From Deltaproteobacteria bacterium (GTDB lineage Bacteria; Desulfobacterota; Binatia; UBA9968; JAJDTQ01): a DNA stretch of 63,199 nt. Under the pieces are notes generated by a model. That model searched no databases, had not been told where the DNA came from, and saw only the letters and a program-made list of their open reading frames with translations. Location: contig JAPOPM010000067.1 in assembly GCA_026712905.1 (NCBI GenBank), positions 1-63,199 of the forward strand. Direction: 5' to 3'. Below are positions 8,056 to 33,035 of the stretch, piece after piece. Numbering within the stretch: the stretch's first letter is position 1; each line of letters begins with the position of its first letter. Position numbers and translations under genes: made by a program.

Positions 8056-8059
8056 GGCG

Positions 8060-9493
8060 TCAGAGACCTCCGAGGATGCGCGAGCGCACCCGTGACGTGG
8101 TGTTGGTGACGCGTTTCATGGCTTCGGAGCGGATCCCCACGATGACCTGGTCGCCGACTTCGAGACCCGAGACGATCTCCATGTTCTTGGCGTCGGTGGC
8201 GCCGAAACGGATGCGCGCCCGCGCCGGCTTGTCGTCCCGATAGACCCACACGCCGCCGCGGCCCTCCAGCATCCACCGGCGCCTCTGCTCGGCGCTGGGC
8301 GGGCCGCGCCGCCGCCCACCCCCCCGCCTGGGCATGTCGGGGTAGAGTTGACGGATGTCCCGTCCGCTGATCCGCAAGGCGGCCCCGGGAACGATGAGCA
8401 CGTCCTGCCGCCGGGCGAGGATGATGGTGACGTTGGCCGTCATGCCTGGCTTGAGGGCCAGGTCCTTGTTGGGCACCCGGATCTCGGTGTCGTAGGTGAC
8501 GACGTTGTCCTTGATCAGCGGCGACGGGAAGATGCGCACCACCTTGCCCTCGAAGGTGCGCCGCGGGTACGAGTCCACCGAGAACTCCACCTCCTGTCCG
8601 ACCTTCACCCTGCCGATGTCCGCCTCGTCGACAAAGGCGGAGACCTTCATTTCCTCCAGCTCGGCGATCTTCACCAGCGGCGGTGACGACAGGCTCGCGG
8701 CCACCGTCTGCCCGGCTTCCACGGTCTTCTGGATAACGACGCCGGAGATGGGCGCGACGACGACGCTGCGGTTGAGCCGCACCCGCGCCATCTCCAACTC
8801 GGCCTCCGCCTGCTGGATGTCCGCGCGGATGCCCGCGATGACCGCCCGCTTGACCTTGACCTCGTCCACCCGGGCCGACTCCTCCCGGTAGCGCGCCGCG
8901 GCGCGTTCGTATTCCGCCTGGATGGACTCGTACTGGTCCCGCGAGATCAGGTTGCGGCCCACGAGGTCCTTGTTGCGCCGGTGCTTCTCCTCCAGGTTCT
9001 CGAACGCCGCCTTCGCCCCCGCGATGCTCGCCGCCACCCGGGATTTCAGCATTTCGACGCCCGCCAGCTCCTTGGCGAGATTGGCCTTGGCCTTCGCCAC
9101 CTTGGCTTCCGCCTGGAGCAACTGCGCCCGGAACAGGTCCTGGTCCAGCCGCGCGATCAGGTCGCCCCTCTTGACGCGCATGGGCACGTCCACCGGGAGA
9201 TCCTTGATGGTGCCGGACACCTGGGTGGAGACGGTCACCGACGACACCGGGTTCACCGTGCCGGTCGTGGTGATGCGGGAGAAGATCTCGCCCCTCTCGA
9301 CCTCCGCCAGCCGGAAAGGAAAGACGTTCTTCTTCTCTTCCGCCGGAAGGAGCCTGCTCGTCAGCGAGGAAAGCCCGCCGCGCATCGAGCCCACGTTGCT
9401 CTCCACCAGCGCCGGGTCATACCAGAACAGCCCCGCGCCCCCGGCTCCCAACAGGACCAGGACAAGAGCTATGATCCAAAGGATCCGCTTCAT
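8060..9493 (-). CDS. macA: MacA-like periplasmic adaptor (HlyD/RND type)
   Basis: The N-terminal hydrophobic helix (ILWIIALVLVLLGAGGAGLF) anchors it in the inner membrane. The biotinyl-lipoyl half motif TVSTQVSGTIKDLPVDV, a long coiled-coil hairpin (about residues 110-230, LEEKHRRNKDLVGRNLISRD), the second lipoyl half RSVVVAPISGVV, and beta-barrel and membrane-proximal domains follow in order. It couples MacB to an outer-membrane channel. Its 477 residues are longer than E. coli MacA because of a basic glycine-rich insert (MPRRGGGRRRG) near residue 385. ATG 9493 has GGAG upstream. It forms an operon with the downstream macB-like gene. Confidence 0.92.
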   Translation of the reverse strand: MKRILWIIALVLVLLGAGGAGLFWYDPALVESNVGSMRGGLSSLTSRLLPAEEKKNVFPFRLAEVERGEIFSRITTTGTVNPVSSVTVSTQVSGTIKDLPVDVPMRVKRGDLIARLDQDLFRAQLLQAEAKVAKAKANLAKELAGVEMLKSRVAASIAGAKAAFENLEEKHRRNKDLVGRNLISRDQYESIQAEYERAAARYREESARVDEVKVKRAVIAGIRADIQQAEAELEMARVRLNRSVVVAPISGVVIQKTVEAGQTVAASLSSPPLVKIAELEEMKVSAFVDEADIGRVKVGQEVEFSVDSYPRRTFEGKVVRIFPSPLIKDNVVTYDTEIRVPNKDLALKPGMTANVTIILARRQDVLIVPGAALRISGRDIRQLYPDMPRRGGGRRRGPPSAEQRRRWMLEGRGGVWVYRDDKPARARIRFGATDAKNMEIVSGLEVGDQVIVGIRSEAMKRVTNTTSRVRSRILGGL

Positions 9494-18212: not shown

Positions 18213-19340
18213 ATGTTGAAGACAACCCATGGCACTCCCGGCGCTGAAGACACGCTTTCCATCGTCGTTCCGACGTTCCGCGAGGTGGGCAACATCCCCA
18301 CGCTTGCGGAACGCATCGACGCGGCCCTGGCGGAGACCGGCATCAAGTGGGAGCTGTTACTCGTAGACGACGATTCCGGCGACGGCAGCGAAGAGGCGGT
18401 CCACGAACTCGCCCGCCGTCTGCCGGTCCGGATCGTGGTCCGGCGCGACGGGCCGCGGGACCTGTCGCTGGCGGTGCTCGAGGGCATCCGGCAGTGCCGC
18501 TTCGACCGGCTGGTGGTGATGGACGCCGACCTGTCGCATCCGCCCGAACGCATCGCCGACATGCTCGCGGACCTGGCGCGGGACTGCGACATGGTCATCG
18601 GCAGCCGCTACACCCTCGGCGGAGCCGTGGACCGGTCCTGGAGCCTCTATCGCCTGCTCAACTCACGGCTGGCGACCTGGATGGCGCGTCCCCTGGTGGA
18701 CTGTGCCGACCCCATGTCCGGTTTTTTCGCTACGCGCCGCAGCGCGTTGCCGGAGCTCGGGGGACTGCGGCCCATGGGGTACAAGATCGCGCTGGAGCTG
18801 ATGGTGCGCGGGCGGTTGCGGGTGCGGGAGATTCCCATCGACTTCCACGACCGCAGCGTCGGGTCCAGCAAGATGAACTGGCGGCAGCAGGTCCGCTTCC
18901 TGCGCCATCTTTCGCGGCTGTACGACTACCGTTTCGGCAGCATGGCGCGCATCCCCAGCTTCAGCGTGGTGGGCGCCAGCGGCCTGATGGTCGACCTCGC
19001 CTGCTACCTCGGGCTCCAGTGGGCCGGCGTGGAGCACCGGCTGGCGCGTTTCCTGTCCTTCTGGCCCGCGGTGAGCTGGAACTGGGCGCTCAACCGCGGC
19101 TTCACGTACAGCGGGCGGGAGCGGCAGCCGCATCTGGAGCAATGGGCGCGGTTCGCGGCCAGCAGCGTCATCGGCCTGGGCGTGAACGTGGGCAGCTACG
19201 CGCTCCTGACCAGCTACGTCGCCCTGTTCGGACGCCACCGCCTGTGGGCGTTCTTTCTCGGCGTGGCCCTCGGCAGCGTGGTGAACTTCGTGGTCGCCGA
19301 CCTCTACGTCTACCGGAAGCTCCCGCCGCCGGAGCGCTGA
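18213..19340 (+). CDS. Polyprenyl-phosphate mannose/glucose synthase-like GT2 fused to GtrA domain
   Basis: Residues 15-230 are a family-2 glycosyltransferase of the dolichol-phosphate mannose synthase type: LSIVVPTFREVGNIPTLAER, LLVDDDSGDGS, VVMDADLSHPPE with the metal-binding DAD near residue 104, and VIGSRYTLGG. Residues 245-370 are a GtrA domain with four TM helices (FSVVGASGLMVDLACYLGL onward). The same architecture is found in prokaryotic DPM synthases that make polyprenyl-P-mannose from GDP-mannose on the cytoplasmic face. It heads a plus-strand gene string with three TMTC-like proteins and a GT22, all of which belong to families that use lipid-linked sugars. The donor sugar is inferred from the ManC gene nearby. 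Confidence 0.88.
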   Translation: MLKTTHGTPGAEDTLSIVVPTFREVGNIPTLAERIDAALAETGIKWELLLVDDDSGDGSEEAVHELARRLPVRIVVRRDGPRDLSLAVLEGIRQCRFDRLVVMDADLSHPPERIADMLADLARDCDMVIGSRYTLGGAVDRSWSLYRLLNSRLATWMARPLVDCADPMSGFFATRRSALPELGGLRPMGYKIALELMVRGRLRVREIPIDFHDRSVGSSKMNWRQQVRFLRHLSRLYDYRFGSMARIPSFSVVGASGLMVDLACYLGLQWAGVEHRLARFLSFWPAVSWNWALNRGFTYSGRERQPHLEQWARFAASSVIGLGVNVGSYALLTSYVALFGRHRLWAFFLGVALGSVVNFVVADLYVYRKLPPPER

Positions 19341-19386
19341 TGCGCATGGCCCGCGGACTCCGGCAGCCGCGCGCCCGCGACAGCAT

Positions 19387-21894
19387 GTGAGCGAGCCGCG
19401 CCAACGACCCGAGAAGCAACGGATGACAAGCGCCTGGCAACGACAGTCCGCGGACGACGGCGACCGGACCGGCGGTTCCCCGGGCCGGCACGCCCTGCCG
19501 GCACTCGGACTCGGGCTTCTCGTGGCGGTGAGCTACTTGCCCGCGCTCCAGGGCGATTTCGTCTGGGACGACGTCATCTTCTCCGAGGAGCCGGTCATCC
19601 ACCAGTGGTCCGGGCTGTGGAACATCTGGTTCTCGCCCGCGGACATCCGCAACGAAGGACACTACTGGCCGGTCGTCTATACGAGCTTCTGGCTGGAGCA
19701 CAAGCTGTGGGGCCTCGCGCCCATCGGGTACCACGTCGTCAACCTGCTGTTGCACTGGCTCAACACCCTGCTGGTGTGGCGGCTGCTCCGTTGCCTCGCC
19801 GTGCCCGGCGCCTGGGCCGCGGCCGCGGTCTTCGCCGTGCATCCGCTCCACGTGGAATCGGTGGCATGGCTCATCGAGCGCAAGGACCTGCTGTCCGGGC
19901 TGTTCTACCTCGCCGCCGCGCTCACCTGGATCCGCTTCGTCGATACTCCGACCTGGAGCCGCTACGGCCTCTCCCTGGCGCTGTACGTCGCGGCCCTCCT
20001 CTCCAAGTCCATGGCGGTGACCCTGCCCGCGGCGCTCCTGATCTGGCACTGGTGGCAACGGGATCGGATCAGCGCCGCGGACCTGGCGCGCCTGGCGCCG
20101 TTCTTCGCCGTCGGACTGGCCCTCACCGTTGCGGACTACGTGTTCTACAGCGGACGGGAGCCGCTGGCGCTGGGCTACTCGTTCATCGAGCGGATCCTCA
20201 TCGCCGGCCGCGCCTTGTGGTTTTACGCCGGCAAGCTCGTGTGGCCGACGGACCTGGCGGTGATCTACCCGCTGTGGGACGTTCGCGCCGGCGACGCACT
20301 GGCATGGGCCCACGTGGTCGCCGCCGCGGCCGTGGCGGCGTTCCTGTGGCTCGGCCGCCATCGCCTGGGCCGAGGGCCCGTGGCCGCCGTGCTGTTCTAC
20401 GCCGTGACACTGGCGCCGGTTCTGGGCTTCATCGATTACGGCTACATGCAGTTCTCCTTTGTCGCCGACCGCTTCCAATACCTGGCCGGCATGGGCCTGA
20501 TGGCGCTCCTCGTCGGCACCGCCGTCCGGGCCGCGGGCGGGCTGCCGCGTGTTCTCGGCATGGCGGCCCGGGGAGCGTTCGCCCTGATCCTGGCAGTGCT
20601 CGCGACGCTGAGCTGGGCGCAGTCGGGCATCTACCGGGACGAGGTCACCTTCTTCAGCCACATCGTCGGATTGAACCCGGCCGCGCGCGACGCCTATCTG
20701 AACCTCGGCAGCGCGTTGTTCGAGGCGGACCGGCCCGAAGAGGGACTGGCGGCCAGCCGTCTTGCCCTCCGCCACCGGCCCGACTCCGCGAGCGCCCATT
20801 CCAACGTGGGACGCGGACTGCTCAAGGAGGGACGGTTCGACGAGGCGGAAACGCATCTCCGGCGCGCCGTGGAGCTCGATCCGCGCAAGGGCTCGGCGCG
20901 GCAGAACCTGGCCGAACTGCTGCGCAAGACGAAGCGTTACGAGGAGGCCGTCGCGACGTCCCGAGCCGCTCTCCGCATCGACCGCAACAGCGCGCTGGCC
21001 TACGGCGGCATGGGCACCGCGCTGTTCGAGTTGAAGCGCCACGAGGAGGCGGTCGCCGCCACGACCCGGGCACTGGCCCTCAAGCCGGACACGGCCATGG
21101 CGGGTTCTCTGCACCTCTTCACCGGCAAGTCGCTCCGCGCCCTGGGACGGCTCGACGAGGCGGAAGCGTATATCCGCCGAGCCACGGAGATCGACGCGCG
21201 CAACCCGTTGCCGCTGGTGGAGCTGGCCGGGCTGTATCGCACACGGGGACGCGGCGCGGAGGCCGACCGGCTCCTGGAGCGCGCCCGGACGCTGCCGTCG
21301 AGCGACGCGGCCGCGCTTCACGTGACGGCGGAGGCGCTGCGCGCCCGGAAGCGCTTCGAGAGCGCCATGGAAATGTATCGCGCGGCCATCGGAATCGCCC
21401 CGGAGTTCGCTCCCGCCCACGCCGGACTGGGCATCGCGCTGTTACAGGTCAAACGGAACGCGGAGGCCATCGAGGCCATGGCGCGGGCGCTGCGGCTCGA
21501 CCCCGCACTGCCGGTGGCGGGGACGCTGCACGTGCTCCTGGGCCGCGCCCAGCAGGCCCTGGGGAAGACGGAAGCCGCGGCCGAACACCATGAGCGCGCC
21601 CTCGATCACGACCCGCGCCAGCAGGAAGCCCTGGACCGCCTGGCGATGATCCGCTTCCAACAGCGTCGCTACGCCGATGCCCTGGAACTCTACCGCAGGC
21701 TGGCGGAGGCGGTCCCCACGGGAGCGCAGACTCACGCCAACATCGGCGCCACCCTGTACCACCTGGGCCGTCCCGGCGAGGCATTGACCAGCTTCGAACG
21801 GGCGCTCTCCCTCAAGCCCGACCTGGAGGGGGCACGGAAAGGAGCGGCGCACATGCGCCGGGTGGTCGAGCAACGGGCACAACCGCAACCCTAG
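19387..21894 (+). CDS. TMTC-like membrane glycosyltransferase with TPR array, paralog 1
   Basis: An 835-residue protein with about ten TM helices in residues 40-425 and roughly eleven TPRs from residue 435 to the end (for example AYLNLGSALFEADRPEEGLA). The N-terminal loop contains FVWDDVIF near residue 58, an acidic motif expected of GT-C enzymes. AVFAVHPLHVESVAWLIERK near residue 148 matches the eukaryotic TMTC signature HPxHxExVAxxxxRxDLL. TMTC proteins O-mannosylate cadherins from dolichol-P-mannose. By analogy this protein may transfer mannose to exported proteins or other acceptors, with the TPRs facing the acceptor. GTG at 19387 is used; ATG 19423 is an alternative. It lies 46 bases after the GT2-GtrA gene. 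Confidence 0.85.
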   Translation: MSEPRQRPEKQRMTSAWQRQSADDGDRTGGSPGRHALPALGLGLLVAVSYLPALQGDFVWDDVIFSEEPVIHQWSGLWNIWFSPADIRNEGHYWPVVYTSFWLEHKLWGLAPIGYHVVNLLLHWLNTLLVWRLLRCLAVPGAWAAAAVFAVHPLHVESVAWLIERKDLLSGLFYLAAALTWIRFVDTPTWSRYGLSLALYVAALLSKSMAVTLPAALLIWHWWQRDRISAADLARLAPFFAVGLALTVADYVFYSGREPLALGYSFIERILIAGRALWFYAGKLVWPTDLAVIYPLWDVRAGDALAWAHVVAAAAVAAFLWLGRHRLGRGPVAAVLFYAVTLAPVLGFIDYGYMQFSFVADRFQYLAGMGLMALLVGTAVRAAGGLPRVLGMAARGAFALILAVLATLSWAQSGIYRDEVTFFSHIVGLNPAARDAYLNLGSALFEADRPEEGLAASRLALRHRPDSASAHSNVGRGLLKEGRFDEAETHLRRAVELDPRKGSARQNLAELLRKTKRYEEAVATSRAALRIDRNSALAYGGMGTALFELKRHEEAVAATTRALALKPDTAMAGSLHLFTGKSLRALGRLDEAEAYIRRATEIDARNPLPLVELAGLYRTRGRGAEADRLLERARTLPSSDAAALHVTAEALRARKRFESAMEMYRAAIGIAPEFAPAHAGLGIALLQVKRNAEAIEAMARALRLDPALPVAGTLHVLLGRAQQALGKTEAAAEHHERALDHDPRQQEALDRLAMIRFQQRRYADALELYRRLAEAVPTGAQTHANIGATLYHLGRPGEALTSFERALSLKPDLEGARKGAAHMRRVVEQRAQPQP

Positions 21895-21904
21895 GCGTGC
21901 TGCG

Positions 21905-24463
21905 ATGGAGACGAAGGAAAAAAGGCCGACCCGCCGTCAACGGCGTGCTTCGAAGCCCGCGAAACGGCAGACCCCGCCCCCTCCGCCGTCCGGTGAAGAG
22001 CGGCGGTTCCGGTGGCCCGGGATGTCGCGCACCACGGCCTTGGGCGCCGCCGCCCTGGGGCTCATGGTGCTGGTCAGCTACCTGCCCGCGCTGTGGGCCG
22101 GGTTCGTCTGGGATGACGCCATCTTCGTGGAAGAACCGGTGATCCACGACTGGTCCGGGCTTTGGAGCGTCTGGTTCGATCCGGCGAACATCAAGAAGGA
22201 GGGGCACTACTGGCCGATCGTGTACACGAGCTTCTGGCTGGAGCACAAGCTGTGGGGACTCGCGCCCATGGGCTACCACCTCGTCAACGTGCTGCTTCAC
22301 CTCGCCAACTGCCTGCTGGTGTGGCGCCTGCTATCCCGGCTGGCGGTGCCCGGTGCCTGGGCCGTGGCCGCGGTGTTCGCCGTGCATCCGCTGCACGTCG
22401 AGTCGGTGGCATGGATCATGGAGCGCAAGGACCTGCTCTCGACGCTGTTCTACGTCACGGCCTTGCTGACCTGGATACGTTTCACCGAAGTGCCGGAATG
22501 GCGGCGCTATTGCCTGGCCCTGGCACTGTTCGCCGCGGGACTCCTGTCCAAGTCGGTGGTGGTCACCTTGCCCGCGGCCCTCGTGATCTGGCACTGGTGG
22601 CAACGCGACAAGGTCACCTTCACCGACCTGGCGCGGCTCGCGCCGTTCTTCGTGGTGGGGCTGTTCATCACCGCCGGCGACCTGGCCTTCTACAACTCGC
22701 GCGAGCCCCTGTCCCTGGACTACACGTTCGCCGAGCGGCTGTTGATCGCGTGCCGCGCCCTGTGGTTCTACGTCGGCAAGCTGCTGTGGCCCGCCGACCT
22801 CGCGGTGATCTACCCGCTGTGGGACATCCGCGCCGGCGATCTTCTCGCCTGGGCCTACGTGCTGGCGGCGGGCGCGCTGCCGGTGCTGCTGTGGCTCGGG
22901 CTCGGGCGCATCGGACGCGGGCCGCTGGTGGGCGCGCTGTTCTTCGCGCTGACCCTGTCCCCGGTCCTGGGATTCGTGGACTACGGCTACATGCAGTTCG
23001 CTTTCGTCGCCGACCGCTTCCAGTACCTCGCGGGCCTGGGCGTCATGGCGGTGCTGGTGGGCGCCGGCGTGACGGCAGCCGGCCGCCTGACGGGCGCTCC
23101 CAGGGCGGCCGTCCAGGGCGCGTTCGGCGCGGTCCTGGTCGTGCTCGGGGCTCTTACCTGGGCGCAGTCCGGCGTCTACCGGAACGAGGTCGCGCTCTTC
23201 GGCCACATCGCCGCCAGCAATCCCGAGGCGCGGGACGCGCACCTCAATCTCGCCAAGGCCCTGATCCTGGAGGGGCGCAACGAGGAAGCCCTTGCCGCGG
23301 CCCGGGTCGCGGTGGCGCAGCGTCCGGACTTTGTCGCCGGCTACACCAACCTCGGGCTGTCGCTGCTGAACCTGAAGCGCTACGACGAGGCCGAGAAGGT
23401 CCTCCGCCAAGGCATGCAACACGAACCGCGCGACCGGAACTCGCGCCAGAACCTGGCCGACACGCTGCGCCGGCAAGGGAGGTACAAGGAGGCCGTGGAG
23501 GCCTACCGCGACGTCATCGAGGTGGACCGCCGCTACGCCCTGGCCTACGCCGGGCTGGGCGACACGCTGTTCCGCCTGACGCGCTACGAGGACGCCGTCT
23601 CCGCTCTGGAGCGGGCACTCGCCCTGGACCCCGACGCGTCCGTGGCGGTCACGCTCCATCTGATCCTGGGTGAGAGCCTGACCAAGCTCAACCGGTTCGA
23701 CGCGGCGGCCGAACGGTTCCGCCGCGCCGCGGCCATGGACCCGGGGGACGCGCGTCCCCTGGGCCGCCTGGCGCAACTGCTGAACACCCAGGGACGCACC
23801 GCGGAGGCCGACGGCTATCTGCGCCGCCTGCGCGAGTTGCGCCCCGACCAGGCGGCCTCCCATCACCACGCCGCCGAGGTGCTCAGGCGCGGCAAGCGCT
23901 ACGAGGACGCCGTGGCGTCGTACCGCGCCGCCCTCCAGGTCGATCCGGACTACGGCCCCGCGCACGCCGGGCTGGGAACCGCGCTGTTCGCCATGAAGCG
24001 TTACGACGAGGCCCTGGAGTCCCTGGAACGCTCCATCGACCTGGAACCGGAGTCACTGGCCGTCGTTGCCCGCCACGTGCTGGCGGGACGCGCGGCCCGG
24101 GCGCTGGACCGCACGGAGGAAGCGATCGGGCACTTCGAACGCGCCCACGCCATGAACCCGCGCAACGCCTCGGCGCTGGACTTCCTCGGCGTCGCGCGCT
24201 TCAGCCAGAAGCGTTACGACGAGGCCCTCACGCTGTTTCGCGCCCTGCTCGAGCTGCGCCCCGACCAAGCGAACATCCTCGCCAACATCGGCACCACGCT
24301 GTATCACCTGGGCCGGCCCGAAGAGGCGCTGCCGCACTTCGAACGCGCCGCCGCCCTGAAACCCGACCTGGCCTCGGCGCAAGCCGGGCTCCAGGCGGCG
24401 CGAAGGGCGCTGGAACGAACCGGGCAGGCACAAGGCCAAGGCCATGGCAAGCCGGAAGAGTAG
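21905..24463 (+). CDS. TMTC-like membrane glycosyltransferase with TPR array, paralog 2
   Basis: An 852-residue tandem paralog of the preceding gene, starting 10 bases after its stop. It has a basic N-terminus (KEKRPTRRQRRASKPAKRQT) before TM1, FVWDDAIF near residue 67, AVFAVHPLHVESVAWIMERK near 160 and FVDYGYMQFAFVADRFQYLA in a later loop shared by the first two paralogs. From about residue 442 there are some twelve TPR units, such as KRYDEAEKVLRQGMQHEPRD. The strong conservation of the membrane half against variable TPRs suggests the same chemistry with different partners. It overlaps the next gene by 20 bases. Confidence 0.86.
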   Translation: METKEKRPTRRQRRASKPAKRQTPPPPPSGEERRFRWPGMSRTTALGAAALGLMVLVSYLPALWAGFVWDDAIFVEEPVIHDWSGLWSVWFDPANIKKEGHYWPIVYTSFWLEHKLWGLAPMGYHLVNVLLHLANCLLVWRLLSRLAVPGAWAVAAVFAVHPLHVESVAWIMERKDLLSTLFYVTALLTWIRFTEVPEWRRYCLALALFAAGLLSKSVVVTLPAALVIWHWWQRDKVTFTDLARLAPFFVVGLFITAGDLAFYNSREPLSLDYTFAERLLIACRALWFYVGKLLWPADLAVIYPLWDIRAGDLLAWAYVLAAGALPVLLWLGLGRIGRGPLVGALFFALTLSPVLGFVDYGYMQFAFVADRFQYLAGLGVMAVLVGAGVTAAGRLTGAPRAAVQGAFGAVLVVLGALTWAQSGVYRNEVALFGHIAASNPEARDAHLNLAKALILEGRNEEALAAARVAVAQRPDFVAGYTNLGLSLLNLKRYDEAEKVLRQGMQHEPRDRNSRQNLADTLRRQGRYKEAVEAYRDVIEVDRRYALAYAGLGDTLFRLTRYEDAVSALERALALDPDASVAVTLHLILGESLTKLNRFDAAAERFRRAAAMDPGDARPLGRLAQLLNTQGRTAEADGYLRRLRELRPDQAASHHHAAEVLRRGKRYEDAVASYRAALQVDPDYGPAHAGLGTALFAMKRYDEALESLERSIDLEPESLAVVARHVLAGRAARALDRTEEAIGHFERAHAMNPRNASALDFLGVARFSQKRYDEALTLFRALLELRPDQANILANIGTTLYHLGRPEEALPHFERAAALKPDLASAQAGLQAARRALERTGQAQGQGHGKPEE

Positions 24464-26408
24464 GAAAGGGACCGCGGAGAAGAGGGCCGCGGAGAAGAGG
24501 ACCGCGGCGGCGCAGGCGTCCCGGCACCGTGGGGACGTGCCCGCCGCATCCACGGGTCCCCTGGTCTCCGCCCGCTTCACGCGCGCGGACGCGCTGGCGG
24601 CGGCGGCCTTGGCCCTGATGATCGCGGTCAGCTACTTCCCCGCCACCCGTTTCGGCTTCGTCTGGGACGACGTCATCATCACCACCCTGGACGCGATCCG
24701 GGAATGGGGCGGCATCGTGGACCTGTGGTTCGCTCCGGGCACGGCGTACCGGCAGGGCATCGTCGGCGAGGACCACTACTGGCCGCTGCTCTACACGACC
24801 TTCTGGATCGAGCACAAGCTCTGGGGATTCGCCCCGGCCGGCTACCACGCCGTCAACCTGATCCTCCACTTCGTGAACACGGTGCTGCTGTGGCGTCTGC
24901 TGCTGCGACTTTCCGTGCCCGGCGCGTGGTTCATCGCCGCGGTGTTCGCGGTGCACCCCTTGCACGTGGAATCCGTCGCCTGGGTGATCGCCCGCAAGGA
25001 CCTGCTATCGGCCATGTTCTATCTCATGGCCTTCAGCGCCTGGCTGCGCTTCGTGGACGCACCGCGCGCCGGCAACTACCTCCTGGTGATGGCGCTGTTC
25101 GCGGCCGGCATGTTGTGCAAGTCCATCGTGGTGACGTTCCCCGCCGCCCTGCTCGTCTGGCACTGGTGGCGACACGGGCGCGTTACCGGGACGGACTGCG
25201 CGCGGCTGGTGCCCCTGTTCCTCCTCGCCGTCGCCCTCGCCGCCGTGGATCTGGCCATCTACGAGAGAGTGAGCCTGGCTTTCGACTACTCGGTCACCCA
25301 GCGTACGTTGATGGCCGCGCAGTCGCTGTGGTTCTACGCGGGGAAACTGCTGTGGCCGTTCCACCTGGCCCTCCTGTATCCGCAGTGGGACCTGGAAGGT
25401 CCGCTGGCGTGGGCGGCCCTCGTCGCCGCGTTCGCCGTTTTCGCGTCGCTCTGGTTCCCGCGGCACCGCATCGGACGCGGGCCGCTGGCGTGCGCGCTGT
25501 TCTTCGCACTCACGCTGGCGCCGGTGCTGGGCTTCAAGGACTTCGGCTACATGAACATGTCGTTCGCGGCGGACCGCTACCAGTACCTGGCCGGGACCGG
25601 CATCCTCATCCTCGTTGCGGGTGGGGCCGCCCGCGGCACGGCCCGGCTTGCGCACCCCTGGAAGAAGGCGGCGGCGGGACTTGCCGGCGTGGTGCTCGCG
25701 GTGCTGGGAGCGGCCTCGTGGCTCCAGTCCGGCGTCTACAAGGACGACGCAACCCTGTTTACCCATGCGGCGGCCACCAATCCGGGGTCCTGGGCCGCCC
25801 GGTACCATGCCGCGCTCGAGCTCCGGAAGCTCAAGCGCTATGACGAGGCCGAAGACCATTTCCGCCGCTCCCTGGAACTGCGGCCGCGCGACTATACCGG
25901 CCGGCACCGTCGCGACGTGCTCCAGCACATCGCCGATACGTTCCGGCTGCGCGAGCGCTACGAGGAAGCCATCGTCGCCTACCGCCGGGTGGCGGCGGAA
26001 TTTCCCGATTTCCCCATGGCCCATGCCGGGCTGGGTTACTCCCTGTTCCGGCTCCAGCGCCACGAGGAGGCCATCGTCGCGCTGGAACGGTCGCTGGCCC
26101 TCAAGCCGCCCTCATCCGCGGCCGAGGGCCTCCGGCGCCTCTTCGCAACTACACTCGACAGCGCCGCTTGGGGCCGTTTCGCCGACGCGCGTTACAGTGA
26201 GGCGCTGGACCTCTACCGGAAACTGGCGGCGCTCGATGACGGCAACGCCCGCGTCCATGCCAACCTGGGCGCGACCCTGCAGCGCCTGGACCGGCTGGAA
26301 GACGCCCGCCGAAGCTTCGAGCGCGCCCTGGACCTGGACCCGGACCTTGCATTGGCCCGGGCCGGGCTGAAGGAGGTGCGGGAACGCCTGCGGCGACGCG
26401 GACAGTAG
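24444..26408 (+). CDS. TMTC-like membrane glycosyltransferase with short TPR array, paralog 3
   Basis: A 654-residue third paralog, beginning within the last 20 bases of paralog 2. The N-terminus is Lys/Arg/Ala-rich. Core motifs are FVWDDVIITT near residue 71, AVFAVHPLHVESVAWVIARK near 170 and GYMNMSFAADRYQYLAGTGI. Only about five TPR units remain after residue 449 (KRYDEAEDHFRRSLELRPRD; DRLEDARRSFERALDLDPDL), so it lacks the long array of its neighbours. It is a complete gene, not a truncation: it ends with a normal TPR and is followed by a well-spaced downstream gene. Reduced acceptor range is one reading of the short array. Confidence 0.85.
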   Translation: MASRKSRKGTAEKRAAEKRTAAAQASRHRGDVPAASTGPLVSARFTRADALAAAALALMIAVSYFPATRFGFVWDDVIITTLDAIREWGGIVDLWFAPGTAYRQGIVGEDHYWPLLYTTFWIEHKLWGFAPAGYHAVNLILHFVNTVLLWRLLLRLSVPGAWFIAAVFAVHPLHVESVAWVIARKDLLSAMFYLMAFSAWLRFVDAPRAGNYLLVMALFAAGMLCKSIVVTFPAALLVWHWWRHGRVTGTDCARLVPLFLLAVALAAVDLAIYERVSLAFDYSVTQRTLMAAQSLWFYAGKLLWPFHLALLYPQWDLEGPLAWAALVAAFAVFASLWFPRHRIGRGPLACALFFALTLAPVLGFKDFGYMNMSFAADRYQYLAGTGILILVAGGAARGTARLAHPWKKAAAGLAGVVLAVLGAASWLQSGVYKDDATLFTHAAATNPGSWAARYHAALELRKLKRYDEAEDHFRRSLELRPRDYTGRHRRDVLQHIADTFRLRERYEEAIVAYRRVAAEFPDFPMAHAGLGYSLFRLQRHEEAIVALERSLALKPPSSAAEGLRRLFATTLDSAAWGRFADARYSEALDLYRKLAALDDGNARVHANLGATLQRLDRLEDARRSFERALDLDPDLALARAGLKEVRERLRRRGQ

Positions 26409-26422
26409 GAGAAACGGGACTC

Positions 26423-28183
26423 TTGCCCGACGTGACCACAAAGCAAAGGAGAGCGGAAAGAAGGCGTCGCCGCGCCGTGCCATCGAGGCCGGCGTCGCGC
26501 ATGCAGGCCGCGCTCGACCTGTCGCTGCACATGCAGCCGTGCGAGGAACGCCCTTGGAAGTACCTTCCCGCGGTGCTCGTAGTCGCCTTCGCGGTGCGTG
26601 CCGCCGTGGCCCTGTACGGGGAGTTCGTCCTCCATCCCGACGAGATCATGCAGTACCTGGAGCCGGCCCACCGCCTGGTCTTCGGTTACGGCATCCGTTA
26701 CTGGGAATACTTCTACGGCGCGCGCCCGTGGTTGGTCCCCGGCGCCATCGCCGGGGTCCTCAAGGCCTTCGACCTGATCGGACTGGGCCAGCCGTTCTGG
26801 TACGTCGGCGGCGTCAAGCTCGTGCTGTGCGCGGTTTCGCTCGTGATTCCCGCGGCCATGTACGTATTCGCGCGGCGGCACTATGGCGAAAGCACGGCAC
26901 GGGTCGCCCTGGTGGCGTGTGCCTTGTGGTACGAACTGGCCGGGTTTGCCCACAAGCCGATGACCGAGTTCGTCGCCGCCGCCCCGCTCCTGGCCTTGCT
27001 GGCCCTCGGCCTGCGGCCGTCCCTCGACGACAACCGGGCGGTGTGGCTCGCCGCCTTCCTGTCGGTGCTCACGGTGGCCGTGCGCATGCAGTACGCGCCG
27101 CTGTCCTTGCTGCTGCTGGGAGTGGTGTTCCTGCGAACGCGCCGGAAGTTCACGCTGGTCCTGGCCGCGGCCGCGTTCGCCCTCGCGGCCGGGATCTTCG
27201 ACGCCGTCGCATGGGACGGCGTCTTGTTCCATTCCTACCTCACCAACCTTCGCTACAATCTCTTCGTCAGAGCGTTTCGCGGCGACGAGAGCCCCGTGTA
27301 CCAGTTCGTCTTGTGGCTGTCGCTTGCGAGCGGGGGGGTGAGCGTGCTCTGCATCCTGGCGGCCTGGTGCAACCCCCGGCGTTACGGACTCGTGCTCGCG
27401 CTGATCACGGTGCTCCTGGTGATCCATTCGCTGGAGGCGCACAAGGAATACCGGTTCGTCTTCGTCGTCGTCCCGCTCTGGATCCTGCTGGGGGCGGACC
27501 TTGTGGTACGGCTGGCCGGGGGAGACCTGCGCCGGTTCCGGATCACCGTCCCGGCTGCCGTGGTTGTGGCGGCGGCCTCGCTGGCCGGCATCCTCAACTG
27601 GCTGCCGTACCAGCAATGGGCGTATAAGGCGTGGTCGGGCGAGGCCCCCTACCATTGGTTCGTGCGCCGGCAGGACCCTGTGTTCGCGGCGTACCGCTAT
27701 CTCGCCACCGCCCCGGATGTGAAGTCGGTCTGGCATATCGGCCGCCAGTACCTCATCACCCCCGGCTACTACTACCTGCACCGGCGCATCCCTTTCTATG
27801 ATCTTCAGTCCGGTCGCGACGTGATCCCGGACGCGGCGGCTCTCGAGGCGACGGTCAGTCACATCGTGGCCGACAACCCGCGGGCATCCATTCCCGGTTA
27901 TTCGCTGGAGAGGGCCTTCGGCCCATTGCGAATACTGCGGCGCATCGACAACGACAGGCCGGTCCGCCAGTGGCGCGGCTACTCGCCGATCATCGTGTAC
28001 GAAGCCGAGCGATACGTCCTGCCGCGGATCGATCCGGACGGCCCCGTGCCGCCGGACCAATGGGCAATCCGCTTCACGGATCCTCCGCCGCCTCCCGGCG
28101 GACAGAAGTTCAGGTGGGATGCTCCGGCCCGTCCTTCCGGTCAGCCCTCCCCTTCCCGCTCGCGCGGGTCCGCGCGGCCGTAG
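26423..28183 (+). CDS. GT22 (ALG9/PIG-B-like) mannosyltransferase
   Basis: A 586-residue multi-pass GT-C protein. FVLHPDEIMQYLEPAHRLVFGYG near residue 70 carries the HPDE motif of GT22 enzymes and SLEAHKEYRFVF near residue 339 is the second signature 'HKExRF'. In eukaryotes this family transfers mannose from dolichol-P-mannose in N-glycan and GPI synthesis. The C-terminal 200 residues form a soluble, presumably periplasmic part. The start is a TTG at 26423 with AGGAG about 12 bases upstream; a GTG at 26432 is possible. It lies 14 bases after TMTC paralog 3 and is most likely in the same operon. Its 3' end overlaps the convergent manC by 43 bases. Confidence 0.87.
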   Translation: MPDVTTKQRRAERRRRRAVPSRPASRMQAALDLSLHMQPCEERPWKYLPAVLVVAFAVRAAVALYGEFVLHPDEIMQYLEPAHRLVFGYGIRYWEYFYGARPWLVPGAIAGVLKAFDLIGLGQPFWYVGGVKLVLCAVSLVIPAAMYVFARRHYGESTARVALVACALWYELAGFAHKPMTEFVAAAPLLALLALGLRPSLDDNRAVWLAAFLSVLTVAVRMQYAPLSLLLLGVVFLRTRRKFTLVLAAAAFALAAGIFDAVAWDGVLFHSYLTNLRYNLFVRAFRGDESPVYQFVLWLSLASGGVSVLCILAAWCNPRRYGLVLALITVLLVIHSLEAHKEYRFVFVVVPLWILLGADLVVRLAGGDLRRFRITVPAAVVVAAASLAGILNWLPYQQWAYKAWSGEAPYHWFVRRQDPVFAAYRYLATAPDVKSVWHIGRQYLITPGYYYLHRRIPFYDLQSGRDVIPDAAALEATVSHIVADNPRASIPGYSLERAFGPLRILRRIDNDRPVRQWRGYSPIIVYEAERYVLPRIDPDGPVPPDQWAIRFTDPPPPPGGQKFRWDAPARPSGQPSPSRSRGSARP

Positions 28184-29601
28184 ACGTCCTCGTAGCGGAC
28201 GATGTCGTCCTCTTCCAGGTAACCGCCGGTCTGCACCTCCACCAGCTCCAGCGGGCCGGCGCCCGGATTCGCGAGCCGGTGCTTCGTTCCCCTGGGGATG
28301 TAGGTGGACTGGTCCTGCTTCAGGGTGAAGGACTCGTCCCCTCGTGTCACCGTGGCCGTGCCGCGCACCACGATCCAGTGCTCCGCGCGGTGCTCGTGGG
28401 ATTGCAGCGACAGGGACTGACCGGGCTGGACGACGATGTGCTTGACCTTGAAGCCGCCGCCGCCGTGAACCGAGTCGAAGGAGCCCCAGGGCCGGTGCAC
28501 CTTGCGGTGGGCGCGGTGCTCCTCCCGCCCCTGCGAGCGGAGCCGCGCCACCACCTTGCCGGTGTCCCGGGCCGCGTCCCGGCGCGCCACCAACACCGCG
28601 TCCGGCGTGTCCACGATGACCAAGCCGGACACCCCCAGCGCGGCCACCAGACGGCCGCCGCCGTGCACGTAGGTGTCCCGGACGCCCTCCAGAACCGCCT
28701 GGCCCCGGACCGCGTTGCCGTCGGCGTCGGTTTCGCCGAGATCCGCCAGAGCGGCCCAGGAGCCGACATCGGACCATCCGGCCTCGAGCGGGATCGTCAC
28801 GGCGTCCGAGGTGTGCTCCATGACCGCGTGGTCCACCGAGATGGCCGGACAATGCGAGAATGCCTCCGCGTCCAGCCAGCGGAACCCCGCGTGCGCCGCC
28901 GCCTTCCGGTAGGCGCGGGTGGCGGCCTGGCGGACCGCTGGCGCACGCGTGCCGAGCTCGCTCAAATAGCGGGCGGCGCGGAAGACGAACATGCCGCTGT
29001 TCCAGTAGTACCCGCCTTCCTCGACATAGCGGGCCGCGTCCGCCGCGTCGGGCTTCTCGACGAACCGTGCCACGCGGCGGCCGCCCTCGCTGACGCCGGT
29101 GGGGGCGGCCGTCTTGATGTAACCGTACCCGGTTTCCGGATAGGTCGGAGGGACGCCGAAGGTCACGAGATGCCCGCGGGCGGCCTCCCGCACGGCGGCT
29201 CCAACGGCGCGCGCGAATTGGCTCTGGTCGCGGATGACGTGGTCCGCCGGGAGCACCAGCAGGATGGGATCTTCGCGCCCGTCGCCGAGCGCCAGCGCTT
29301 GCAGCGCCGCCGCGGCAATGGCCGGCGCGGTGCTGCGTCCGGCCGGCTCCAGCAGCACGGCCGACGGCGTGACGTCGACGGCCTTGAGCTGTTCGGCCAC
29401 CATGAACCGGTGGGCTTCGTTGCATACCACGATGGGCGCGCGCGCACCGTCAAGCGGGGCCAAGCGACGGACGGTGGCCTGCAGCAGGGTGTGCTCGTCC
29501 ACCAGCGGAAGGAACTGCTTGGGGTGAAGCTCCCGGGACACGGGCCAGAGCCGGGTTCCGGCGCCGCCCGAAAGGATCACGGGGAACAGGACGTGGCTCA
29601 T
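28141..29601 (-). CDS. manC: Mannose-1-phosphate guanylyltransferase / mannose-6-phosphate isomerase
   Basis: Makes GDP-mannose, the donor for polyprenyl-P-mannose. The N-terminal nucleotidyltransferase has FPVILSGGAGTRLWPVSREL with PKQFLPL; VEKPD lies near residue 165. The C-terminal cupin isomerase domain has RPWGSFDSVHGGGGFKVKHI, then SLQSHEHRAEHWIVVRGTA and YIPRGTKHRLANPG. The 486-residue length is that of two-domain ManC/AlgA/XanB. ATG 29601 aligns with family N-termini (MSHVLFPVILSGG). It is convergent with the GT22 gene, and its position supports a mannose-specific role for the whole block. Confidence 0.94.
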   Translation of the reverse strand: MSHVLFPVILSGGAGTRLWPVSRELHPKQFLPLVDEHTLLQATVRRLAPLDGARAPIVVCNEAHRFMVAEQLKAVDVTPSAVLLEPAGRSTAPAIAAAALQALALGDGREDPILLVLPADHVIRDQSQFARAVGAAVREAARGHLVTFGVPPTYPETGYGYIKTAAPTGVSEGGRRVARFVEKPDAADAARYVEEGGYYWNSGMFVFRAARYLSELGTRAPAVRQAATRAYRKAAAHAGFRWLDAEAFSHCPAISVDHAVMEHTSDAVTIPLEAGWSDVGSWAALADLGETDADGNAVRGQAVLEGVRDTYVHGGGRLVAALGVSGLVIVDTPDAVLVARRDAARDTGKVVARLRSQGREEHRAHRKVHRPWGSFDSVHGGGGFKVKHIVVQPGQSLSLQSHEHRAEHWIVVRGTATVTRGDESFTLKQDQSTYIPRGTKHRLANPGAGPLELVEVQTGGYLEEDDIVRYEDVYGRADPREREGEG

Positions 29602-29700
29602 TTCAGCGATCTCGATCTCCAGCTCCACAACGCGAGGGCTGACTATACCAGAGGAAACGCGCCGGCACACAGGTGCCCGCGGCGGGGTCTCGCGCCGAAT

Positions 29701-30401: not shown

Positions 30402-31277
30402 TCAGGGCCATAGGTCGAACCGGCGGATGAGCGCGAGGCGCACGACGACGATGTGATTCTCGACCCAGTAGGGGCATGGCTCGCGCGGGCCGCCGGGCCC
30501 GCAGGGGTTGTTCCCGGAATGGTTGACGCGGTAGGTTCTGCGTCCGAACCCCAGGTACGAGCCGTCCACGCGCCAGCGCCAACCGTCCACCTCCGGCGTC
30601 TCGAAACCGATGCCGAGAACCCAGCCGATCCGCGTGGCGGCATCGGCGAACGAATCGTCGGGGTCCCAGTAACGCGGCACGCCGGGGGCGAAGTCGATGT
30701 CGGTCAACGTATTCGTGATCCTGGCAAGCGCCATGCCGCCGTTGATGAACACCGTCAGCGGCCCTTCCCGGTGCTCCAGCCCCAGGCGCGCGGTGGCCGC
30801 CCACTCGACCGACGCCCGCACGGTCTCGTCGCGCCCCGCGGGATCGACCCGGTCCGACTGCGCGGACATGTTGCCGCCGACGGCGTCGAGCTCCAGCCTG
30901 AGAGGCACCCGGTCCAGGGTCCATTTCCTTCCCGCCAGAACGCCCCAACCCACCTCGCCGGCGTCGTAGTCCGTGGCCCACCCGGAGCGGCCCCAGTTTC
31001 CGAAGCCGCTGGGATCGACGATGCGGTTCTCGGTGCGGGCGGCGGAGAGGAACGCGCCCACGTAGGCGTCCCCCCACGCCGCGACGGACGGCGCCGCGCC
31101 CAACAGACCGGGACACGCGAGCGCCAGCAATGCGAGGACCGGACGCCGCCACGCCCCCGAAAACGCGCCGAAAACCCAGCTTCGGCGCGATCGGGAGCGA
31201 CGTTCGCGGAAGGTCCTCGCCTCCCTCGCCGCCGGCGGCAAGACTTCAACACGGTGTGCTGCGCGGTAGCCAAGCAT
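30402..31277 (-). CDS. Outer-membrane beta-barrel protein
   Basis: A 291-residue protein with an Arg-rich leader, then a hydrophobic signal-like segment (PVLALLALACPGLLGAAPSVAA, about residues 46-67). Alternating strands rich in Gly, Trp and Tyr follow, such as VGWGVLAGRKWTL, LTVFINGGMALARI and WRWRVDGSYLGFGRRTYRV. The pattern fits a small eight-stranded porin-like barrel of the OMP_b-brl class. The long N-terminus before the signal peptide suggests that the true start is downstream, for instance a TTG within the first 15 codons, but no good ribosome site was found. It ends FDLWP rather than the usual C-terminal Phe. Function unknown. Confidence 0.6.
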   Translation of the reverse strand: MLGYRAAHRVEVLPPAAREARTFRERRSRSRRSWVFGAFSGAWRRPVLALLALACPGLLGAAPSVAAWGDAYVGAFLSAARTENRIVDPSGFGNWGRSGWATDYDAGEVGWGVLAGRKWTLDRVPLRLELDAVGGNMSAQSDRVDPAGRDETVRASVEWAATARLGLEHREGPLTVFINGGMALARITNTLTDIDFAPGVPRYWDPDDSFADAATRIGWVLGIGFETPEVDGWRWRVDGSYLGFGRRTYRVNHSGNNPCGPGGPREPCPYWVENHIVVVRLALIRRFDLWP

Positions 31278-31376: not shown

Positions 31377-32147
31377 TCACGCGGGCCCATGGCCGGCCGG
31401 GGGATCGTTCCGCCGGCGCAGCCAGGCGCAGGTCCGAGGATGGTGGGTGCACAGCTCGGAGGAAGCACTGAAGTCGCGCCGCAAACGCTCCAGGTCCCGG
31501 GCCACGTCCACGTCATAGGTGCCGGGGACCATGCGCACCCGCAGCCCCAGTTGCCGCGCCTTCTCGAGAGTCTCCCGGAGCACGGCGGCGGTGCTCCAGG
31601 CGATGCCGCTGAAGAGACCCGCCGCCGGGCGGTTGAGACCGATGAGATAATAGCCGCCGTCGTCCGCCGGCCCCAGCACCACGTCGCACCGGCCTCCTTC
31701 CAGCAACTCGCACGCCCTCTCCACCGACGACGACGCCAGGGTGGGAATGTCGCTACCCACGAGCACCACCGGCCCGTAGCCCGCGTGGCACAGGTCGGCG
31801 AAGACCGCGTGCATGCGCTCCCCGAGGGAGGCGCCGCGCTGCGGCAGGCGGGCGATGCCGTGCTTCCGCATGCGCGTGAAATAGCCCCGGCTGCGCTCGG
31901 CGTAAGCGATCCAGGTGTCCCAGCGCGCCGAACGCGCCAGGTCTTCGAGCACGTCCTGGAGCACGCACGCGTAGAAGTCCGCCGCCTCCACCGGGGTCAG
32001 TGGCGGGCACAGCCGGGTCTTGACCGCCCCCGGCCGCGGCGCGCGCCCCATGACCGCCACCGCCGGCCTGCCGGGACCGGCGGACTCCGGCGCGGATCCC
32101 CTGCGGGAAGCACCCGGCGAACGTCGACGTAAGGATTCGCTGCTCAC
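31377..32147 (-). CDS. TIGR04282/DUF2064-type glycosyltransferase
   Basis: A GT-A fold protein of about 256 residues. AVAVMGRAPRPGAVKTRLCPP is the nucleotide-binding start and VVLVGSDIPTLASSSVERAC holds the acidic SD motif. CDVVLGPADDGGYYLIGL and FSGIAWSTAAVLRETL are the other signatures of this family, whose members are annotated as arsenosugar-type or cofactor-modifying transferases. No canonical ATG precedes the conserved region by a family-like distance. GTG 32147 is proposed; an internal ATG 23 bases before GRAPRP would give a shorter protein. It is divergent from the TVP38 gene, and the intergenic region contains a dyad. Confidence 0.8.
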   Translation of the reverse strand: MSSESLRRRSPGASRRGSAPESAGPGRPAVAVMGRAPRPGAVKTRLCPPLTPVEAADFYACVLQDVLEDLARSARWDTWIAYAERSRGYFTRMRKHGIARLPQRGASLGERMHAVFADLCHAGYGPVVLVGSDIPTLASSSVERACELLEGGRCDVVLGPADDGGYYLIGLNRPAAGLFSGIAWSTAAVLRETLEKARQLGLRVRMVPGTYDVDVARDLERLRRDFSASSELCTHHPRTCAWLRRRNDPPAGHGPA

Positions 32148-32164
32148 GGAATTTACCTGCGACA

Positions 32165-32183
32165 CCAAATCAACTATATTTGG
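32165..32183. promoter_or_regulatory. Dyad in a divergent promoter region
   Basis: CCAAAT-CAACTAT-ATTTGG is a perfect 6+6 inverted repeat in a rare AT-rich patch between the divergent glycosyltransferase and TVP38 genes. It includes TATATT on the plus strand and TATAGT on the minus strand, both resembling -10 boxes, so it could be an operator overlapping two promoters. Confidence 0.35.
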
Positions 32184-32336
32184 ACGCACTGACGCAATCC
32201 CGCCTCTCGGGGGCAGCCGGCGGCCGCGGTCACCGGAGCCGGACGAGGACCGCCTTCGATGACCACCACGACCGGAGCCGGAACGGCACATGCAGCGGGA
32301 CCAGCGGATTTCCGAGACAACCGGGAGACATCGTCC

Positions 32337-33035
32337 ATGAATCAACGGATCGTCAAGATAGCGCTGGTGGTGGTGGTCGCCGCACTCATCGCGGCGTTCT
32401 TCGTCTTCGACCTCGGGAGGTACTTCAACCTCGAATTCATCAAGGCGCAGCGCGACGCCTACCAGGGCTACTACCTGGAGAACCCCTCCGTCACCATCGC
32501 CGCCTACGCGGCCATCTACATCACCGTGACCGCGCTCTCGCTTCCGGGCGCCGCCATCATGACCTTGCTCGGCGGCGCGCTCTTCGGGGTGATCACCGGC
32601 ACCATCATCGTCTCCTTCTGCAGCACCATCGGCGCCACCCTGGCGTTCCTGGTGGCGCGTTTCCTGTTGCGAGACAGCATTCAAGGCAAGTTCGGCGACA
32701 GGCTGGAAGCCATCAACACCGGCATCGCCAACGAGGGCATGTTCTACCTGTTCACCATGCGGCTGATCCCGGTAATCCCCTTCTTCGTCATCAATCTCGT
32801 GATGGGGCTAACGCCCATCCGCACGGTGCAGTTCTTCTTCGTGAGCCAACTGGGCATGTTTCCAGGCACCATCGTCTACGTGAATGCCGGAACCCAACTG
32901 GCCCAGATCGATTCGCTGGCGGGCATCCTGTCGCCGACGCTCCTGTTGTCCTTCGCGCTGCTGGGCCTGTTCCCGCTCATCGCCAAGAAGGCCATCGAAC
33001 TGGTCAACAAGCGCAAGCAGGCAAAAACGTCATAG
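32337..33035 (+). CDS. TVP38/TMEM64 (DedA-like, VTT domain) membrane protein
   Basis: A 232-residue protein with an N-terminal TM helix (IVKIALVVVVAALIAAFFVF) and a VTT/SNARE-associated domain. IYITVTALSLPGAAIMTLLGGALFG, then LAFLVARFLLRD and RLIPVIPFFVINLVMGLT are family hallmarks, with the RLIPVIPF re-entrant motif. Members are thought to scramble or transport lipids. ATG 32337 has GGGAG upstream and gives the conserved N-terminus; the longer frame from 32259 is unlikely. A mercuric-reductase-like gene follows after 112 bases, a neighbourhood seen in many bacteria. Confidence 0.9.
   Translation: MNQRIVKIALVVVVAALIAAFFVFDLGRYFNLEFIKAQRDAYQGYYLENPSVTIAAYAAIYITVTALSLPGAAIMTLLGGALFGVITGTIIVSFCSTIGATLAFLVARFLLRDSIQGKFGDRLEAINTGIANEGMFYLFTMRLIPVIPFFVINLVMGLTPIRTVQFFFVSQLGMFPGTIVYVNAGTQLAQIDSLAGILSPTLLLSFALLGLFPLIAKKAIELVNKRKQAKTS

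Follow-up and report, generated by a model that had tools for sequence, protein, structure and literature searches.

A gene cassette of TMTC-like, GT22 and dolichol-phosphate-mannose synthase-like proteins in a Binatia bacterium: a candidate periplasmic protein O-mannosylation module that recurs across phyla

What is the function of a ∼10 kb block of genes on contig JAPOPM010000067.1 of a Binatia bacterium, in which a gene resembling dolichol-phosphate-mannose (DPM) synthase is followed by three genes for TMTC-like membrane proteins with tetratricopeptide repeats (TPRs) and by a GT22 glycosyltransferase gene? The window, i.e. the whole stretch of DNA analysed here, is this contig of 63,199 nt. 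We propose that the DPM-synthase-like GT2-GtrA protein, the three GT-C+TPR proteins and the GT22 protein make up a periplasmic protein O-mannosylation module, the likely substrates being Thr/Ser-rich adhesins of beta-sandwich repeats such as giant Calx-beta autotransporters, and we put the probability of this reading at about 0.5. The genes of the block are as follows (PMT_2 is PF13231, cut-off 26.1 bits).

18213-19340, plus strand: GT2-GtrA, DPM-synthase-like; PF00535 (91 bits) and PF04138 (69.7 bits), both above cut-off; DAD at residue 104
19387-21894, plus strand: TMTC-like A, GT-C membrane half and TPR half, 835 residues; WDD60, HPLHVESVAW152, VADR359; PMT_2 22.2 bits (below cut-off); many TPR matches
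21905-24463, plus strand: TMTC-like B, 852 residues; PMT_2 31.6 bits; TPRs
24444-26408, plus strand: TMTC-like C, 654 residues; PMT_2 28.1 bits; AlphaFold2 model
26423-28183, plus strand: GT22 (Alg9-like), mannosyltransferase-family, 586 residues from TTG; PF03901 102.7 bits (cut-off 23.8)
28141-29670, minus strand: ManC, mannose-1-phosphate guanylyltransferase / mannose-6-phosphate isomerase; TIGR01479 632.8 bits (cut-off 372.95); PF00483 and PF01050

The five plus-strand genes are closely spaced, with successive gaps of 46, 10, -20 and 14 bp. The initial annotation had counted manC as part of the block, and it is indeed a real two-domain gene; it lies on the opposite strand, however, tail to tail with the GT22 gene and overlapping it by 43 bp, and we therefore treat it as a neighbour rather than as an operon member. 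Translation of GT22 probably starts at TTG 26423, given the AGGAGA upstream and a basic N-terminus like that of its homologues, while the database copy (P0121) begins at an ATG 26 codons downstream. A scan for promoters and terminators gave no candidate promoter (0 where 0.6 were expected) and terminators at chance level (5 vs 4.9 expected). That the block is more than chance follows from the homology scores rather than from motif counts. A fourth TMTC-like gene lies elsewhere in the same genome (contig C43, 7552-8697), with no other cassette gene found in the 20 kb around it.

Each of the proteins A, B and C carries the motifs WDD, HYWP, HPLHVESVAW and ADR and has a C-terminal half made of TPRs, bearing out the description of three tandem multi-pass proteins with an HPxHxE-type motif. 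The catalytic-type residues WDD, HPxHVE and ADR are invariant in all 18 aligned membrane halves (alignment and profile A3), and the membrane halves of A and B, 69% identical, pair in the tree (support 88, unstarred). Fold prediction, made for C rather than for A or B, gave an AlphaFold2 model with pLDDT 81.4 and pTM 0.75, whose membrane half aligns with STT3, ALG12, Pmt4 and ArnT, and also with AftD and PglB; the model confidently predicts a GT-C fold for the membrane half of C, with an acidic pair in the first outer loop. The top Foldseek matches listed for protein C are TPR structures, the GT-C matches forming a separate list, and no solved TMTC structure is among the matches listed. The TMTC membrane-half profile matched zero chains among PDB sequences.

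The GT2-GtrA protein was aptly called DPM-synthase-like. Its closest solved relative is the dolichol monophosphate mannose synthase PDB 5mlz, with which it shares a GT2 domain and a GtrA/DPMS membrane domain in a nearly full-length match (182 bits, residues 15-361); the next-best solved relative scores 58 bits. We take the 5mlz enzyme to be archaeal, and the bacterial lipid carrier is presumably undecaprenyl-phosphate, unlike the dolichol of 5mlz. On this likeness in sequence, GT2-GtrA is predicted to make polyprenyl-phosphate-mannose. The GT22 protein has both of the motifs reported for it, HPDE and HKEYRF, in columns that are invariant in 18 of 18 homologues, and its HKE aligns with that of ALG9 and ALG12, which share the PF03901 domain; searches of the PDB with its profile (A1) give weak matches to ALG9 (E 2.6e-4) and ALG12 (E 1.1e-3), and ALG12 is also the best fold match of what is a weak model. 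It differs from these two enzymes in being bacterial and clustered with TMTC-like genes.

To what extent are these genes found together elsewhere? A GT22-profile scan of the genome collection yielded 91 loci, 80 of which were kept (labels L...) and divided at 300 bits (tblastn) into 49 close and 31 far loci; TMTC-like genes were called at 200 bits or more and GT2-GtrA at 60 bits or more. TMTC-like genes are present at 24 of the 49 close loci and at four of the 31 far ones, and at 15/27 of the close loci that have ∼10 kb on both sides. GT2-GtrA occurs at 16 of the 49 close loci, eight copies being 53-69% and eight 28-31% identical to that of the window. Other genes found at close loci include ManC (7), a TMEM260-like cluster (6), another PMT_2-like cluster (8) and a giant Calx-beta cluster (5). 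Eleven phylum names are represented across the 49 close loci and seven across the 24 with TMTC (Gemmatimonadota being doubtful). In two Acidobacteriota (L017, L021) the order is GT2-GtrA, GT22 (twice in L017) and TMTC, with gaps of -4 bp between GT2-GtrA and GT22 and +3 bp between GT22 and TMTC. Within 12 genomes reached through these loci, TMTC accompanies GT22 at 10 of 17 close loci (20 kb each), where TMTC density predicts a fraction of ∼0.19, the 17 loci not being independent of one another, since L026 overlaps L034 and a transferred block is common to several. The linkage of GT22 with TMTC-like genes thus recurs across phyla, which is new here, and the neighbourhood survey of GT2-GtrA, TMTC and GT22 that the initial annotation had called for recovers a tight gene set in other phyla. 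Also new is the TMEM260-like gene cluster carried by six loci; the one member scanned (L026:17192-19303) matches PF11028, the family of TMEM260 (GT117), at 77.8 bits (cut-off 24.2), making it a partner gene of TMEM260 type in relatives' cassettes.

Taken by themselves, GT-C+TPR proteins are ordinary in bacteria, since, of the candidates scored, 4155 of 7999 are homologous to the TMTC-like membrane half at E 1e-3 and 1062 of 7997 to GT22; the close form is uncommon. Across 39 relatives, GT22 was found in five, all in the window's genus (5/9, one fragmented; 0/30 others). Close TMTC-like genes (451-682 bits) occur in eight of the nine genus members, while eight of the 30 others have remote ones alone (141-206 bits). 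In a phylum sample of 395 genomes, with at most three candidates scored per genome, a close GT22 (E 1e-30) was found in the window's own genome alone.

The GT22 tree (78 rows) mixes phyla: the phylum label changes 25 times, where 10 is the minimum and shuffling gives a mean of 39.3, and starred branches force several of the changes; as it is a quick tree with long branches, tight groups alone were used. For horizontal transfer, DNA alignment is the stronger evidence. Blocks 91-95% identical are shared between records, titled single chromosomes, that are named to different classes or phyla (by submitters' titles rather than by rRNA), an observation that is new here: 95.2% over 3594 bp between OY282353 (Gammaproteobacteria) and OY282373 (Nitrospirales), 94.0% over 5170 bp between OY282432 (Binatia) and OY282378 (Gammaproteobacteria), and 91.2% over 9210 bp between OY282368 (Alphaproteobacteria) and OY282433 (Gammaproteobacteria), the last spanning two TMTC genes, GT22 and ManC. 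None of the 80 loci matches the window's block nearly identically, the highest DNA identity among the 25 longest matches being 73%. A further pair was not used as transfer evidence: L022, named Gemmatimonadota, is 92.7% identical to L066 (Latescibacterota) across 6.2 kb of flanking genes, which suggests a metagenome-assembled genome (MAG) that carries the wrong name. In the Nitrospirales-named OY282373, a ∼5.4-kb block is tandemly repeated (L026:1-9855 and L034:12439-21343), with GT22 split into frames of 282 and 159 residues and the same flanking genes. A type I restriction R-subunit-like gene lies near the GT22 block in three loci (L035:5026-8031, with HSDR_N and SWI2_SNF2 domains; L041:14941-17979, on the other side and strand; L042:4907-8032), this being the block that is 95% identical between the Nitrospirota- and Gammaproteobacteria-named chromosomes.

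What might such enzymes act on? In a chromosome of the same genus (G001), cassette genes lie on both sides of a Thr/Ser-rich Calx-beta autotransporter of 12,401 residues, an arrangement that is also new here. Its region at 584-680 kb reads: giant frame (minus), giant frame (minus, 3153 residues), GT2-GtrA (plus), GT22 (minus), giant frame (plus, 12,401 residues), TMTC (minus), TMTC (minus). At E 1e-40 that genome yields no TMTC gene besides these two. The 12,401-residue frame is 18.9% Thr and 11.6% Ser and nearly Cys-free. Fn3 domains lie close to its N-terminus, an autotransporter domain (PF03797, 49.7 bits) is at its C-terminus, and of the 108 Calx-beta matches in the genome it accounts for 94. 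The first giant frame has at least 8445 residues (11,062 stop to stop); all three frames of C1:584001-680000 (L112-L116) are accompanied in this genome by two further open frames with Calx-beta matches, of 13,810 and 8,745 residues, at 2.105-2.149 Mb. Elsewhere, a 931-residue protein with Cadherin-like, fn3, Calx-beta and dockerin domains lies between TMTC and GT22 (L059, a far locus), a 1956-residue fn3 protein directly follows a GT22 fragment (L061), and large, nearly Cys-free proteins with a C-terminal FlgD-type Ig domain lie downstream at three loci lacking TMTC (L014, L015, L019). The window organism itself has 25 Calx-beta matches and eight relatives of the giant's C-terminal barrel (six in frames that also have Calx-beta), all on contigs other than the cassette's. 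That every cassette sits beside an adhesin was considered and rejected, since Calx-beta giants adjoin it in five of 12 genomes and these five are not independent.

A precedent for sugar transfer of this type comes from animals, where TMTC1-4 and TMEM260 are described as putting single mannoses on beta-strands of immunoglobulin (Ig)-like domains of adhesion proteins and receptors, with TMEM260 acting on Ig-like IPT domains and TPRs thought to recruit substrates (PMC11292533, in the sections available). We propose mannosylation of adhesin repeats because the bacterial cassettes combine both of these enzyme designs with a DPMS-like enzyme and, in part of the genomes, with Thr/Ser-rich beta-sandwich adhesins; of the parts seen across cassettes, the window itself holds the TMTC-like, DPMS-like and GT22 parts only. 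By analogy, the module may be a bacterial counterpart of what TMTC and TMEM260 do to Ig-like domains; beyond gene content we infer every step of the mechanism, that of the substrate included. ManC would supply GDP-mannose, which GT2-GtrA would turn into polyprenyl-phosphate-mannose and help to present; outside the cytoplasm, the TPR halves may hold the beta-sandwich repeats of adhesins while the GT-C halves put mannose on their Ser/Thr residues. GT22 could then add further mannose, or serve a lipid-linked glycan, and the several TMTC-like paralogues might serve different repeats or positions. Horizontal spread of the set would then reflect an advantage that giant adhesins, once mannosylated, may give to life in a sponge.

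Comparison with known systems helps to place this proposal. Like animal TMTC1-4 (GT105), the bacterial proteins have a GT-C membrane half followed by TPRs and occur as several paralogues; they also share two features that the available part of PMC7801869 describes, a DD pair in the first outer loop and an R ahead of a late helix. The bacterial block differs in adjoining DPMS-like and GT22 genes and in lacking a match to the TMTC family model PF08409 (TMTC_DUF1736). The same part of that paper reports essentially full-length TMTC-like proteins with TPRs in prokaryotes, among them AMJ42_05695 of a deltaproteobacterium with the same layout of sugar transferase and TPRs, and gives no gene neighbourhood, transfer, GT22 or substrate link for it. 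The TMTC-like proteins themselves were already in print; of the gene set, for which the initial annotation knew of no described bacterial system, we recognised no description among the open-licence papers listed in our searches. Among glycosylated bacterial adhesins (serine-rich repeat proteins, and the HMW1 and AIDA types), an adhesin gene lies beside its own glycosyltransferases, and the known systems use cytoplasmic nucleotide-sugar enzymes, whereas the GT-C enzymes of the window's cassette, with a lipid-linked donor, would act outside the cytoplasm. The route to bacterial protein O-mannosylation known to us is the Pmt of actinobacteria.

Several results weigh against the proposed protein O-mannosylation. 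PF08409 found no match at E 0.1 in the 18 membrane halves and none in the window's own genome, although the latter only lowers the case for membership since 14 control genomes were silent too; membership in the animal TMTC family proper is thus not supported, and we file the proteins as TMTC-like rather than as members of animal TMTC/GT105, predicting from sequence a GT-C protein-mannosylation block set apart from the animal enzymes. Neither was a TMEM260-like gene found in the window's own genome, where a control search was positive. Among genus members, three of nine (G004, G006, G007) have close TMTC-like genes without GT22, and G008 has neither. Low identity to the window's GT2-GtrA marks half of the close-locus copies (8/16), as it does that of G001 (29%). 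The predicted GT22 model is weak (pLDDT 61), single-stretch matches of GT22 to ALG9 are insignificant and, to our knowledge, the characterised GT22 enzymes take lipid-linked glycans rather than proteins as acceptors. Nor is the adhesin link uniform. Calx-beta giants are adjacent in five of the 12 surveyed genomes (G437-G441), which share the horizontally moved block and are not independent, and in G440 a long distance separates the TMTC gene from the GT22 gene concerned; adjacency is absent from G431-G435 and G442 among the stretches and matches listed, and the nearest listed Calx-beta match in G436 is ∼19 kb from TMTC. Pfam scans of 20 window frames revealed no adhesin beside the cassette, and the 20 kb around the fourth TMTC-like copy contain no further frame of at least 800 residues.

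Some of these facts would suit a different acceptor, if the GT-C proteins and GT22 built or decorated a lipid-linked or surface polysaccharide (mannan, or side branches of lipopolysaccharide (LPS) or exopolysaccharide) and the TPR halves held the assembly machine. The solved GT22 relatives ALG9 and ALG12 are shown with Dol-PP glycans in their PDB entry titles, the fold matches of the membrane half include ArnT, AftD and PglB, enzymes with other acceptors, 25 of the 49 close GT22 loci lack TMTC (some owing to short flanks, and a point that likewise counts against our proposal), and many GT22-adjacent genes at other loci were left unidentified. Against this, no O-antigen, Wzx/Wzy or LPS-core gene was recognised in the 20 window frames scanned with Pfam, and the TPR fusion together with adhesin linkage in some relatives fits protein acceptors better. 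We hold a polysaccharide role to be unlikely, if still a serious contender. A distinct question is whether the sugar is mannose at all: a polyprenyl-phosphate-linked glucose, GlcNAc or galactose could be passed to proteins, with manC a coincidental neighbour. Membership of the GT2-GtrA family does not fix the sugar, GT-C folds are found with many sugars (by entry titles), and manC, convergent in the window, is present in the sequence covered at just seven of 49 close loci. Set against these points are the wide margin by which a dolichol-phosphate-mannose synthase is the closest solved relative of GT2-GtrA, the known association of the GT22 family with mannose and the co-directional manC adjoining GT22 or TMTC at L023, L050 and L059, and we regard a sugar other than mannose as improbable.

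Around the cassette, the window also holds a MacB-type ABC transporter and HlyD-type membrane fusion protein, an efflux pair (5923-9493, minus), a 291-residue frame with a signal-like stretch and an outer-membrane-protein look (30402-31277, minus; best Pfam match E 0.27 only), a DUF2064 frame (31377-32684, minus; PF09837, 111.4 bits), and hydantoinase/oxoprolinase B and A genes side by side (59356-63154, minus).

Where do the organisms with this cassette live? By name, 11 of the 49 close loci are tied to sponges in papers, 35 are presumed to be so by bin prefix or record style, and three are other or unknown: L032 (Plut), which we take to be from coral, L052, from a dolphin mouth by its record title, and L056, unplaced. 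We accordingly rejected the notion that sponges are the source of every close GT22 record. Three p16x, two SB0661, two PNG, one AqS and one bin103 loci are presumably from sponges, going by their prefixes. The 277c bins (two close loci) come from Petrosia ficiformis (PMC8941161, in part), and the jk18x bins (nine) from Ircinia, the accessible part of PMC9531527 printing two jk18x7 bins and the rest being assigned by prefix. For eight loci (IRC, COS, CAR, RHO, STY, APA) the prefixes are initials of sponges in PMC8163846, with the bin names absent from its available parts. Eighteen OX638, OY282 and CATOTB records resemble the Sanger sponge metagenomes, whose abstracts name Latescibacteria and, in two cases, Binatia or Binatota; the accessions themselves were not traced. 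The cassette thus appears mostly in what look like MAGs of marine sponge symbionts, and we infer that the window organism is a sponge-associated Binatia.

In sponge-associated MAGs, proteins with TPRs and other eukaryote-like repeats, cadherins and fibronectin III proteins are reported as enriched and laterally transferred, and TPR eukaryote-like proteins are discussed as host-interaction factors (PMC8163846); the available main text of that study contains no words beginning mannosyl or glycosyltransferase. For part of these TPR eukaryote-like proteins, the cassette offers an enzymatic reading. It is tempting, if doubtful, to go further and suppose that sponge symbionts of many phyla trade a mobile cassette of TMTC/TMEM260-like and GT22 genes for O-mannosylating the Ig-like beta-sandwich repeats in giant adhesins, such that bacteria and animals would use the same two enzyme designs to mannosylate beta-sandwiches of adhesion proteins within one holobiont, some of the abundant 'TPR eukaryote-like proteins' of the symbionts would be glycosyltransferases of this kind, and adhesins carrying mannose might mimic cadherin-type surfaces of the host. 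Protein O-mannosylation of Ig-like domains has been described for animals (PMC11292533, in the sections available); with a recurrent, shared bacterial cassette and, in some genomes, a linked candidate substrate, the origin and purpose of the animal TMTC/TMEM260 chemistry become testable.

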